A stretch of 64,000 nucleotides of DNA from assembly GCA_000827205.1 (NCBI GenBank), contig KN832555.1, positions 1,352,893 to 1,416,892 of the forward strand, in the 5' to 3' direction. The notes under the pieces are model-generated. The model ran no database searches. It saw nothing but the letters and a program-made list of their open reading frames with translations, and was not told where the DNA came from. Position numbers and translations under genes: made by a program. Below, one piece after another: positions 4,612 through 37,914 of this stretch (the first letter of the stretch is position 1; each line of letters begins with the position of its first letter). Source of the stretch: Plicaturopsis crispa FD-325 SS-3. Its lineage: Eukaryota; Basidiomycota; Agaricomycetes; Amylocorticiales; Amylocorticiaceae.

Positions 4612-5139
4612 CCGTGGCCTGCTCACTTGACACTGACGGCCAGGGTTCATGCTGTACTAACCACCGCTCTTAGTATGACTATTGTACGACACATTAATCT
4701 GCACATGGACAATTTGCAGGACATTTTTTCAAGTCATGGACTTGGTTTCGTGTTGTGCTACTCCACGAGAGGTAAGGTCAGCGCCGGTCAGTGCTAGCAT
4801 AGACGTTACAAGTTGAAGCTGGTCAAGTCCGCGGTCACTGTACTAGTCCGGAGCGGAATTCGGAGAAACGGTGTTAGGCACCCCCGGAAACAAACAACGC
4901 CTACGAGATTAGTAAGCACCCACTTTAGGCCGTTCTCCTATCACGATCGTATTTGCATTTGCGGCGTCCGCAAAATCGCTCTGGCCACCGCAGTTCGCAT
5001 CCGTTCGCCCTCTAATCACCTCGCGCGGGTCGAGGTCAACTGCACACACCCGCTCCCCAAATTTTGGCGTGGCCCCTCCCATCACTTCCCCATCAAAACT
5101 CCAAATAAACAGTTCTTTGGTCCGTGCATCTTCCGCTCG
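4612..5139. other. Intergenic, upstream of U2 snRNA
   Basis: No convincing protein-coding frame. It contains the 3' flank of the M16 gene and the upstream region of the U2 snRNA gene. Open frames here look like chance. Confidence 0.4.
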
Positions 5140-5145
5140 TATAAA
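5140..5145 (+). promoter_or_regulatory. TATA box of the U2 snRNA gene
   Basis: TATAAA sits about 25-30 bp before the expected 5' end of U2. This spacing fits a polymerase II core promoter. The assignment is inferred from position only. Confidence 0.55.
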
Positions 5146-5169
5146 ACGCTCCGCTGGATCTTCCTGGCT

Positions 5170-5437
5170 TCTCTACCACTCTGGCCTTTTGGCTTAGATC
5201 AAGTGTAGTATCTGTTCTTAATAGGTGCGAGATCGAAGCCAAAAGCCGGGCGTTCGAGCCCGTTTTAGAGCGTTTTTTACTGACGTGCATTTTTTTCTTT
5301 CGCAGTTTAACCACTATTATGGAGGCACCGCCTCCATTCTTGGTTATCTTATTTTTGCCGCCCTTGCTCCCTGTCCTCTGCTTGCACGACGGGGACGTGA
5401 TGACCTTGCCGCTGCACTACTGGCTTGTGTCGTCGGG
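5170..5437 (+). ncRNA. U2 spliceosomal snRNA, interrupted by an intron
   Basis: Core of the U2 snRNP, which pairs with the intron branch site and with U6. The 5' domain matches U2 closely: GCCTTTTGGC (stem I), TTAGATCAAGTG (U6 pairing) and the branch-recognition GTAGTA at 5205-5210, followed by TCTGTTCTT. Continuity is then broken by an 81-nt intron (5225-5305). After its removal, AATAG (5220-5224), loop TTTAACCA and CTATT (5314-5318) form stem IIa. ATGGAGGC / GCCTCCAT (5319-5326 with 5330-5337) forms a perfect stem IIb. An Sm site ATTTTTG lies at 5351-5357. A terminal stem IV pairs 5399-5404 with 5429-5434 around the loop GCTGCACTACT, resembling the U2B'' binding loop. Spliced length is about 185 nt, like human U2 (188). 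The exact 5' and 3' ends are estimated to within about 8 nt. Confidence 0.92.
5225..5305 (+). other. Spliceosomal intron inside U2 snRNA
   Basis: The 81-nt insert begins GTGCGAGAT and ends TTTCTTTCGCAG. It has a branch site TACTGAC, with branch A at 5283, 22 nt before the acceptor AG, and a pyrimidine tract. These are ordinary mRNA-type signals, identical in style to the neighbouring protein-gene introns. It splits U2 exactly between the 5' strand of stem IIa and its loop. Removing it restores a standard U2 fold, and keeping it destroys stem IIa. Confidence 0.88.
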
Positions 5438-5981
5438 GGATCTCCCTTCTTTTCTTTGCTGCCCGTGCCATTCCTGTCAGTCGACATGGGAGTTACGCGC
5501 AGCAAATGAAGCATGGGTTTTCTGAGTGCGATGGGCCTCCGCTAGCTATGTATCTAATAGTACTAGCTTGTTTGTATGAAGGAATGAGATCCTTGACGGA
5601 GATGTAGGCCTTCTTACTTCGTGCTAGTGTGCTGCAGACATATGAAACCAGCCTCCGCCAGACCCTTACTTTGAGTTATACATGTGTGCATATTCAGCCA
5701 CTACAGGATCACTCCACCAAGTTCAAGTAGGTCCGTACGTAGTTCTAAGTTCTGGTGCCAACACGCTTCACGCTGCAGTGGACTAGATGCGGGACCCTGC
5801 GAGACCATCTCTTACTGTCTACACGCAGGCGTCGAGATGATATAGTAACGCGGGCATTGCATTGGTGGACACTGTGTCGATGCTAGGACAATGTAGATAC
5901 ATGATGGTACCGATTACGACCACTCAAGCACCCGATTATTGGTTAGGCAAGTACTGGTGCCAGTCACCAGTGAGCGGCGGG

Positions 5982-34940: not shown

Positions 34941-37914
34941 GGCCTCAACCTGACGATGATGATTCTGTACATACTAACTCTACACGCACCCGCTCCCCCA
35001 AATCCATACTTACCCTCGCCGCACTCGCCCTCCTCATACATGTTTCCCTCCTCGCCCTCCTCCCCGCACTCCCAAAAGAGCTCGCGTGCGCACTCGCGGC
35101 GCTCGCTGCAGCGCTCACAGACCGTTTCCTCCTCTCCCCATCTACCTCTTCCTCCCCTTCCTCTTCCCCATCCTCCCATACCTCCCACACACCCCGAAAC
35201 TTATCATCGTCCCAAGCCCCCGACCCCTACGGCCTCTTCCACCTCGCCCTCAACCGCCGCCCCACCGACCCGCCCGAAAAGGACCCGCCCACCGAGTGGC
35301 TCAATATGGGTTTCTGGAGAGATACGGAGGTGTTTGCGGAGGCTTGTGAAGGTGCGTTCGTGCGCGGTAGACCAAAACTTCCATTCACGCGCGACTGCCT
35401 ACCCATCTATCTAATTTACACTGACCCATCGCTCTGCTAACAGCCCTCGCGCGCAAACTGTTTGCTGCCGCCGAGATGGAGGAGGGCGGACATGTGCTCG
35501 GTATGTCCTCTCCTCCGTCCGCATAGGGTTGTGCTCGTGTTCGAGTGCTGACGGGTTGTCCTGCTATTTTATTTCTACGCGCGCCGACTCACTCGCTCAC
35601 TCGCTCAGACGTCGGCCACGGCACCGGCGAGTCCCTCCTCCTGCTCCTCTCTGGCGGCGTCTCTCCGCTGTCCGGCGGCGTCTCCTCCCCGCTCTCACAG
35701 GCGTCAAATGTGCCGACTGGCGACTCCCAGACGTCCCCGCTCTCATCTGGCGTCTCCAGCATCACCCCGCTCTCATCTGGCGCAGCTGGCGTCACGCCGC
35801 TCTCTCGTGGCGCAGCTGGCGTCACCCCGTCCTTACCTCGTGCAGTCAACATCACCCCGCTCCCTCGCACAGTCAACGTCACCCCGGCCTTGCCTCGTGC
35901 AGTCAACATCACCCCGCCCTATCGTGGCGCATCTTATATCCCCTCGCTCCCATCTAGCGCAGTCAACATCACCCCGCCCTATCGTGGCGCATCTTATATC
36001 CCCTCGCTCTCAGCTAGCGCAGTCAACATCACCCCGCCCTATCGTGGCGCATCTTATATCCCCTCGCTCCCATCTGGCGCAGTCAACATCACCCCGCCCT
36101 ATCGTGGTGCATCTTATATCCCCTCGCTCCCATCTGGCGCAGTCAACATCACCCCGCTCTCTCGTGGCGTAGCTGGGGTCTCCTCGCTCCCATCTGGCGC
36201 AGCCAACATCACCCCGCCCTATCGTGGCGCATCTAATGTCCCCTCGCTCCCATCTGGCGCAGTCAACATCACCCCGCCCTATCGTGGCGCATCTTATATC
36301 CCCTCGCTCCCATCTGGCGCAGTCAACATCTCCCCGCTCTCTCGTGGTGCATCTAATGTCCCCTGCTCCCATCTAGCGCAGTTAACGNNNNNNNNNNNNN
36401 NNNNNNNNNNNNNNNNNNNNNNNNNNNNNNNNNNNNNNNNNNNNNNNNNNNNNNNNNNNNNNNNNNNNNNNNNNNNNNNNNNNNNNNNNNNNNNNNNNNN
36501 NNNNNNNNNNNNNNNNNNNNNNNNNNNNNNNNNNNNNNNNNNNNNNNNNNNNNNNNNNNNNNNNNNNNNNNNNNNNNNNNNNNNNNNNNNNNNNNNNNNN
36601 NNNNNNNNNNNNNNNNNNNNNNNNNNNNNNNNNNNNNNNNNNNNNNNNNNNNNNNNNNNNNNNNNNNNNNNNNNNNNNNNNNNNNNNNNNNNNNNNNNNN
36701 NNNNNNNNNNNNNNNNNNNNNNNNNNNNNNNNNNNNNNNNNNNNNNNNNNNNNNNGTCAACATCACCCCGCTCTCTCGTGGCGTAGCTGGGGTCTCCTCG
36801 CTCCCATCTGGCGCAGCAACATCACCCCGCCTATCGTGGCGCATCTAATGTCCCCTCGCTCCCATCTGGCGCAGTCAACATCACCCCGCCCTATCGTGGC
36901 GCATCTTATATCCCCTCGCTCCCATCTGGCGCAGTCAACATCTCCCCGCTCTCTCGTGGTGCATCTAATGTCCCCTCGCTCCCATCTAGCGCAGTTAACG
37001 TCTCCCCGCTCTCACAAGACGCCTCCTCCCCGCTACGAAGCGACGCCTCCCATCCATCAGCAGACTCCCAGGTACCAAATGACGCCTCCGCGATACAAGG
37101 GACATTCCCGCGCCCCGGTCGCCTCACGGGCATCACGAGCCTCCCCGCACATCACAGCCGTGCCGCCGCGCGGGTCGCTGCCTTTTTGGAGCGCGCCCGT
37201 GTCGTTGCCACTATGGACGGGAAGGACGGGGAGGATGCACACGACGGGCCAGGAGCGGTGGTAGTAACGAAAGACGCTACAGAAGTGACGCTCTACTGCT
37301 GCGACGCGGTATTCCGCCCGGGTGACGCGGTGACGGGGTGCCGTGTGCGTGCGGACAATTCCCATCCGCTCGATCCCTCACTCATCACCCACCCGCTGGA
37401 CCCCACCATTGCACCCGACGGCACGTATGACACGATCCTCGCCCTCGACTGCGCATACCACTTCTCCCCGCGCGCCGCCTTCCTCGCACAGGCGCATGCA
37501 AGGCTCCGGCCGGGCGGGCGGGTGGCGTTGGCGGATATTTGCTGGGAGGATGAGGGCGCGGGGGATGATGCAGATGAAGGTGGGGAAAAGAATGGGGAAG
37601 GGGAAGGTGAGGATGGGGAGGGATCACGCCCACGCCCATCCCTCCTCGCGTCATTCCACCGACGCCTCCGCTACACCCTCCTCACCCTCCTCCTCCCGCG
37701 CGCCAACCTCCTTTCCCGCGCGGCCTACGCCGCGCAGATGAAGCAGCTAGGGTACGTGGATGTAAAGATGGAGGATGTGTCGGGGGATGTGTTTCCTGGG
37801 TTTCTGCGGTTTTTGGGTAGTAGGGGAAAGGTGTGGTGGATTTTTGCGGCGGGGCTGGGGTGGGTGCTTGGGCGGGAGGGGAGGTTTGTTGTGGTGGTGG
37901 GGAGGAAGGCGTGA
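34919..37914 (+). CDS. SAM-dependent methyltransferase with a repeat insert
   Basis: Probable membrane-associated methyltransferase. The N-terminus has hydrophobic helices (ILTLAALALLIHVSLLALLP, LACALAALAAAL), then PTEWLNMGFWRDTEVFAEAC. After two introns the SAM motif I appears as HVLDVGHGTGESLLLLLS. The fold then resumes only about 1.4 kb later with RPGRLTGITSLPAHHSRAAA (motif II region), DGTYDTILALDCAYHFSPR and LRPGGRVALADICWED, ending FVVVVGRKA. The material in between is a Ser/Pro/Ala/Ile-rich repeat (10- and 20-residue units) containing an unresolved gap. The frame matches on both outer flanks. Start is uncertain: the only in-frame ATGs upstream (34919, or 34883) lie inside the last intron/exon of the preceding gene. 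Near the gap's right edge, two 1-nt losses shift the frame and may be assembly error. Confidence 0.75.
35700..37015 (+). repeat. 30/60-bp coding minisatellite
   Basis: Period 60 bp made of two related 30-bp halves: CCCTCGCTCCCATCTGGCGC-like and ACCCCGCCCTATCGTGGCGC-like, each with a variable 10-bp end. The left part is simpler 30-bp units. In frame it encodes units such as PSLPSGAVNI and TPPYRGASYI. All periods are multiples of three. The array continues across the assembly gap, so its true copy number is unknown. Confidence 0.95.
36388..36755. other. Assembly gap (368 N)
   Basis: A run of N inside the minisatellite. The real length is unknown, because tandem repeats commonly collapse. Confidence 1.

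Follow-up and report, generated by a model that had tools for sequence, protein, structure and literature searches.

The DNA analysed here, hereafter the window, is a stretch of 64,000 nucleotides from the agaricomycete Plicaturopsis crispa FD-325 SS-3 (contig KN832555.1), and near its beginning lies a gene for the spliceosomal RNA U2, on the + strand at about 5173-5440, both ends being approximate. Positions 5173-5442 (+) match the Rfam U2 family RF00004 along the whole model (positions 1-192 of 192; 93 bits, E 2.8e-17), and the covariance model thus places the gene in the family well above the gathering score of 46. Inside stem-loop IIa, however, this match has a stretch of 89 nt, versus 8 in the model. 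Exon 1 (5173..5224, +; 5' end approximate), which holds stem I, the branch-site recognition sequence GTAGTA (5205-5210) and the 5' arm of stem IIa, TAATAG (5219-5224), is delimited by the Rfam match and by the sequence, in which its last letters read TTCTTAATAG with the final base at 5224. An insert of 81 nt follows at 5225-5305 (GTGCGA...TACTGAC...TTTCGCAG), located after nucleotide 52 of U2 in the Rfam consensus, where the 5' arm of stem IIa ends. Exon 2 (5306..5440, +; 3' end approximate) opens with TTTAACCACTATTA at 5306 and, as the Rfam match and the pair counts given below indicate, carries the IIa loop, the 3' arm of stem IIa, CTATTA (5314-5319), stem IIb, a perfect stem of 7 bp (5320-5336), stem IIc (arms 5308-5313 and 5341-5346), the Sm site ATTTTTG (5351-5357) and stems III and IV.

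The insert (5225..5305, +) has the build of a spliceosomal intron, in its own sequence as well as in the alignments and the comparison of seven copies: just as the first-pass annotation of this DNA had described, it consists of 81 nt with the donor GTGCGA, the branch site TACTGAC and the acceptor CGCAG. The branch A lies at 5283, and the distance from branch to acceptor is 22 nt. Within it, the segment AAGCCAAAAG (5236..5245, +) is antisense to 5186-5195 in stem I of the same gene, and is predicted to pair with it when the unspliced RNA is folded. Next to it, predicted folds and the alignment place a hairpin, CGGGC-GTTCGA-GCCCG (5247..5262, +), which among the other U2 copies described below is longer in L004, has lost its sequence in L002 and is unformed in the predicted fold of L001. 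This hairpin was also considered as a tRNA T-arm, but we found a resemblance only, the stem being a misfit by eye.

Upstream of the gene lie the element GGTCCGTGC (GG[T/C]CCGTGC; 5119..5127, +) and a TATA box, TATAAAA (5140..5146, +). In a comparison that covered window positions 5119-5146 and the loci L001-L006, L017, L018, L040, L041 and L068-L070, GG[T/C]CCGTGC ended 48-55 bases before the anchor motif in 6/6 U2 and 2/2 U4 genes, and TATAAA stood at -36 from that motif in all six U2 genes; an element at about -50 together with a TATA-like box is hence common to U2 and U4 genes. The element also precedes five probable U1 genes, which were themselves found through CCGTGC. U5 genes present another picture by eye (L009-L014, L019-L021): their upstream stretch, ACAAAATGCA...ACTTTGATGA or close to it, is shared with U6 rather than with U2 or U4, and U5 might use a U6-type promoter. 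Just after the U2 gene, at 5443-5459, a stretch TCCCTTCTTTTCTTTGC is found little changed in each of the six copies and is a candidate signal for 3'-end processing. Elsewhere in the window, at 35545-36786, an open frame contains near-identical repeats of the PPYRGASYIPSLPSGAVNI type, partly masked as N.

The search of the genome with RF00004 (33.2 Mb, 33,202,659 bases in 49 contigs; 46 of 257 candidates scored) gave eight U2 matches, six over the cut-off (L001-L006, L005 being the copy in the window) and two below. All six are complete U2 genes when read, although the first matches of L005 and L006 ended early (69.9 and 64.5 bits); rescored on their loci, the six reach 74-95 bits. In every one of them a GT-AG insert, of 64, 69, 81, 82, 83 and 83 nt, sits at the identical point. 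A seventh copy, on contig 8 (L008, the same as L072), is disrupted by an insert of 2.2 kb after GTAGTAT and by another of roughly 0.2 kb downstream, and still has an intron of 76 nt at the same point. The eighth match, on contig 4 (L007, the same as L071), is a 5' fragment that ends at GTAGTAT, with no U2 3' half in the 3.5 kb read beyond it; because it ends before the intron site, it is uninformative on the intron. The two broken loci (L072, 1271-3475, and L071, 843390-843544 of contig 4) are both cut at GTAGTAT, and their inserts have the first 38 nt in common (TCATTAACAGAACTAGCC...), which suggests either an element that prefers this site or the duplication of one broken copy. Past these 38 nt the insert of contig 8 finds elsewhere only short partial matches (41-127 nt, 78-90% identity), and within its 2.2 kb the sequence with which U2 stem I begins, CTCTGGCCTTT, turns up at four scattered places (1406, 1465, 1606 and 1954).

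The first-pass annotation had proposed looking for a second, intact U2 locus free of the intron. None was found: all six complete copies are interrupted, and joined U2 exons, allowing up to 3 mismatches, occur at 0 places genome-wide. A U2 20-mer also had 0 matches in viral contigs. The interruption concerns the entire U2 family and not a single gene, and one aberrant U2 gene is thereby ruled out. So is a chance GT-AG, because the same splice signals occur at the same point in six complete copies and in a seventh, disrupted one. For the uninterrupted form we turned to U2 sequences of other organisms, found on stray contigs in a prokaryote collection (L073-L076, of which L075 and L076 come from one contig). 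In these, CAG is directly followed by TTTAA, or by CTTAA in L074, so that removing the insert produces the standard U2 register. Stem IIa, interrupted here, is intact in them, a functional domain uninterrupted elsewhere being the mark of introns in fungal snRNA genes. With RF00004 they score 172 bits at full length, 132 and 120 with the 5' end missing, and 94 for a fourth that covers only the first 76 of 192 positions; an intronless U2 would therefore be expected to rank high in the genome search, with the reservation that these are other organisms and the comparison is not like for like.

Signals of the major class are present in all seven introns: each begins with GT, ends with CAG, and has an RCTNA motif (sought beyond nt 25 of the intron) whose A lies 16-24 nt before the intron end, in agreement with a GU-AG intron with GT donor, YAG acceptor and a branch near the 3' end. 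The branch is RCTRAY in five of the seven, ACTTAC and ACTGAA each being off at one position. The donors are GTGCGA, GTGAGC, GTTAGC, GTACGC, GTACGT, GTATGC and GTACGC. Donors of the U12 type read RTATCCTT, which none of the seven fits, and an intron of the minor class was accordingly discarded. According to PMC5832005, U3 introns of fungi, which are described there as agreeing with introns in general, have GTRWGT donors and YAG acceptors, and fungal branches read RCTRAY and lie 6-36 nt from the acceptor; our branch distances fall inside that range, but the window donor GTGCGA deviates from that consensus, which counts against the intron. So does length: two actin genes of P. crispa contain candidate introns of only 48-60 nt, whose donors include GTAAGT, GTAAGC, GTGCGT and GTATGT, and the U2 introns, at 64-83 nt, exceed them. 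The actin candidates were picked with a pattern that takes GTRNGY and RCTNAY for granted, and were then judged by eye. A 57-residue piece of a KH protein used as query returned short fragments only, of no use for intron mapping. Among the six complete copies, pairwise exon differences amount to 0.5-12.6%, and stay under 5% except with L004, while in the introns 8.4-43.9% of the aligned positions differ, with as many as 31 gapped columns in addition. Despite this divergence the donor, the branch and the acceptor are retained.

The joined exons behave as one structured RNA. GTAGTA and ATTTTTG are invariant in the six complete copies, and of 258 cells (the 43 pairs of 6 helices in a structure based on the window copy, counted over six related copies), 99.6% are standard pairs, a level reached by 10 of 500 shuffles, with slid controls at 24-56%. 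The pair 48:65 of stem IIa, whose two bases come from different exons, reads A-U in five copies but U-A in L004, and the pair 118:139 of stem III is C-G in four copies and U-A in two. At least two two-sided pairs are however seen in 54 of 500 shuffles, and at least as many pair types in 298 of 500; since shuffles often reach these counts and the copies are only six and related, we regard the compensatory changes as supportive, not decisive. Together, the diverged introns with kept signals and the compensatory pair across the intron support the claim of the first-pass annotation that a spliceosomal intron lies in the U2 gene. Its further claim, that removing the insert restores the structure, stands for the letters of stem IIa, the Sm site and the perfect stem IIb, with one reservation about the fold of IIa: in predicted folds of the naked spliced RNA, IIc prevails over IIa in five of six copies (IIa pair probabilities 0.01-0.09), the exception being L002 (0.55-0.96). 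Judging by the pair counts, U2 here encodes both stems. Yeast U2, according to PMC6633205, must take the stem IIa form to join pre-spliceosomes and later refolds to IIc, and Cus2 is described there as favouring IIa. As the naked spliced RNA of five copies prefers IIc, proteins would have to favour IIa in P. crispa as well, in the manner of Cus2.

The genes for U4, U5 and U6 leave no room for an intron. Genome-wide Rfam matches over the cut-off are 6 for U6 (106-117 nt, versus a model of 105 positions), and there are 2 for U4 (130-132 nt versus 138) and 3 for U5 (117-119 nt versus 117), lengths that exclude an intron-sized insert in any of these matches. Three of the U6 genes lie within 22 kb in alternating orientation (G000:C13:575839-597533), and contig 7 has two weak U6 matches (L015, L016) with about 0.3 kb between them. 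The Rfam search of the genome for U1 returned nothing, and the five probable U1 genes went unrecognised at E 0.1; these were picked by eye from the 49 places that match the pattern CCGTGC-gap-ACTTACC (24 for the reversed pattern), and are presumably U1 given their 5' end ATACTTACC and a Sm-like site. Their alignment is close and shows no variable GT-AG segment. Nine places with ATACTTACCTGG were dropped as U1 for want of an upstream CCGTGC, and a search with Rfam for fungal U3 found nothing. Because U4, U5, U6 and the probable U1 genes contain no intron-sized insert, the intron appears, on this evidence, to be confined to U2 among the snRNA genes.

The antisense segment deserves separate attention. 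Exact antisense matches to exon 1, aimed at stem I or its 3' side, extend over 10 nt in L005, 13 nt in L002 and 10 nt in L003, lengths reached by 3, 0 and 0 of 2000 dinucleotide shuffles; they are shorter in L006 and L072 (8 nt each; 36 and 26 of 2000), L004 (7 nt; 210) and L001 (5 nt; 1396). The pentamer AGCCA, complement of UGGCU in stem I, is unchanged in all seven introns. Folding predictions, which cover the six complete copies and not the disrupted L072, pair stem I with the intron in each unspliced RNA, with mean probabilities of 0.79 (L005), 0.73 (L001), 0.78 (L002), 0.58 (L003), 0.48 (L004) and 0.92 (L006), as against 0.04-0.25 for shuffled introns. The real value was reached by 1, 1, 1, 0, 9 and 0 of 60 shuffles respectively, so that pairing is above chance in five copies and not in L004. 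Duplex energies between exon 1 and intron, matched or exceeded by 12 (L005), 63 (L001), 65 (L002), 37 (L003), 355 (L004) and 10 (L006) of 500 shuffles, are modest evidence for pairing, the tests by exact match and by pairing probability being stronger. Changes of stem I in L003 and L004 have no compensating change in the intron. In all six predicted unspliced folds stem IIc coexists with IIb while stem I is paired to the intron. A functional role of the segment is possible.

We are highly confident that the insert is a U2-type GU-AG intron that splits stem IIa, that it is ancestral to the seven copies, that the supply of U2 depends on U2 and that the unspliced RNA is inactive. The sequences show directly the insert with its signals, its occurrence in each complete copy that was found, and the antisense match; splicing itself, transcription from these promoters, the dependence loop and the inactivity are what we infer from them. 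The seven copies that reach the site most likely inherited the intron from an ancestor that they share. Under this explanation, the primary U2 transcript would be spliced by spliceosomes that already hold mature U2, before stem IIa forms. In the unspliced RNA the antisense segment would occupy stem I, and the two arms of IIa would be separated by 81 nt more; with its IIa arms parted and stem I bound to the intron, such an RNA should not assemble, and would take no active part in forming pre-spliceosomes before the intron is removed. Splicing would then be an obligatory step in the maturation of U2, and since each primary transcript needs spliceosomes with mature U2, the supply of U2 would depend on existing U2.

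Two readings compete with this explanation. The insert could be an expansion of the stem IIa loop, retained and never spliced, tolerated like the long insertions of other fungal U2 RNAs: large dispensable insertions are found in yeast U2, the insert does sit between the arms of a stem-loop, and the Rfam match runs along the whole unspliced RNA. Such a loop gives no account of GT, branch and CAG being kept in seven of seven introns while, in the six complete copies, divergence of the interior reaches 44% and length varies, or of a removal that yields the register of uninterrupted genes, and each of the six predicted unspliced folds has a rearranged stem I; we find it hardly credible. Alternatively, all copies with the intron could be pseudogenes and the active, intronless U2 be absent from an assembly that may be incomplete, a view that two further broken U2 loci might encourage. 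The six copies have nevertheless kept the upstream element, the TATA box, the Sm site and almost all of their pairing, and an intronless gene should outscore them (120-172 versus 74-95 bits, not like for like) yet none was found, which makes this very improbable.

A different doubt concerns the antisense segment alone. The intron may be real and the segment have no role, being a relic of how it arose, whether by chance or by inversion of a part of the U2 5' domain. The uncompensated stem I changes in L003 and L004, the short matches in L001 and L004 and the shared descent of the copies, which are hence not independent, speak in favour of this, and the constancy of AGCCA in diverged introns and the rarity among shuffles of the matches in L005, L002 and L003 speak against it. 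We lean towards this reading, which leaves the main explanation standing except for its remodelling step. The more ambitious idea, that the intron is at once a safety catch and a homeostat, with stem I remodelled and IIa split so that the unspliced RNA is kept from working as a defective U2, and with a U2 pool under positive feedback and inherited cytoplasmically, is rather unlikely in our estimation; there, removal needs working U2 and the pool would therefore be set by positive feedback on its own maturation.

If the intron is spliced as proposed, there is no U2 without U2 in this organism, because all complete U2 genes located in the assembly lie behind the spliceosome. Two questions then become testable: how all copies of a core snRNA gene come to retain an intron, and whether or not the supply of spliceosomes is controlled by such self-dependence. 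The antisense segment offers a concrete hypothesis for how harm from unspliced U2 could be avoided.

Among the literature matches listed, no report of a U2 intron in an agaricomycete appears; the subscription literature is mostly outside their coverage, and a published one is possible. That the DNA is from an agaricomycete, as the first-pass annotation took it to be, agrees with the named protein hits; among the 120 of 548 hits listed in one protein search, no other protein is more than 62% identical. Introns of spliceosomal RNA genes have precedents. Introns in fungal U6 genes were reportedly described by Tani and Ohshima in 1989 and by Canzler et al. in 2016; these are likewise spliceosomal introns in a spliceosomal RNA, but unlike in those fungi, the U6 genes of P. 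crispa lack an intron-sized insert in all six matches over the cut-off. The fission yeast U6 intron lies near functional nucleotides, according to PMC10484740. Introns of fungal U3 snoRNA genes, which PMC5832005 presents as GU-AG, clustered at few places and broadly spread in Basidiomycota, are likewise GU-AG introns in a structured RNA gene; they involve no self-dependence, because U3 is not part of the splicing machine. The closest case is the U2 snRNA gene of Rhodotorula hasegawae, for which an mRNA-type intron is on record (Takahashi et al. 1993, as cited in PMC2586383). Both species would carry a spliceosomal intron in a basidiomycete U2 gene, the one of P. crispa being presumably spliced; they belong to different basidiomycete classes, and in P. 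crispa six complete copies are all interrupted. The Rhodotorula intron is said to lie just downstream of the branch-site recognition domain. What we describe is thus a variant of a kind already known, distinguished by three things: the intron occurs in each complete copy found of a multi-copy U2 family, it parts the two arms of stem IIa, and it holds a segment antisense to its own RNA.
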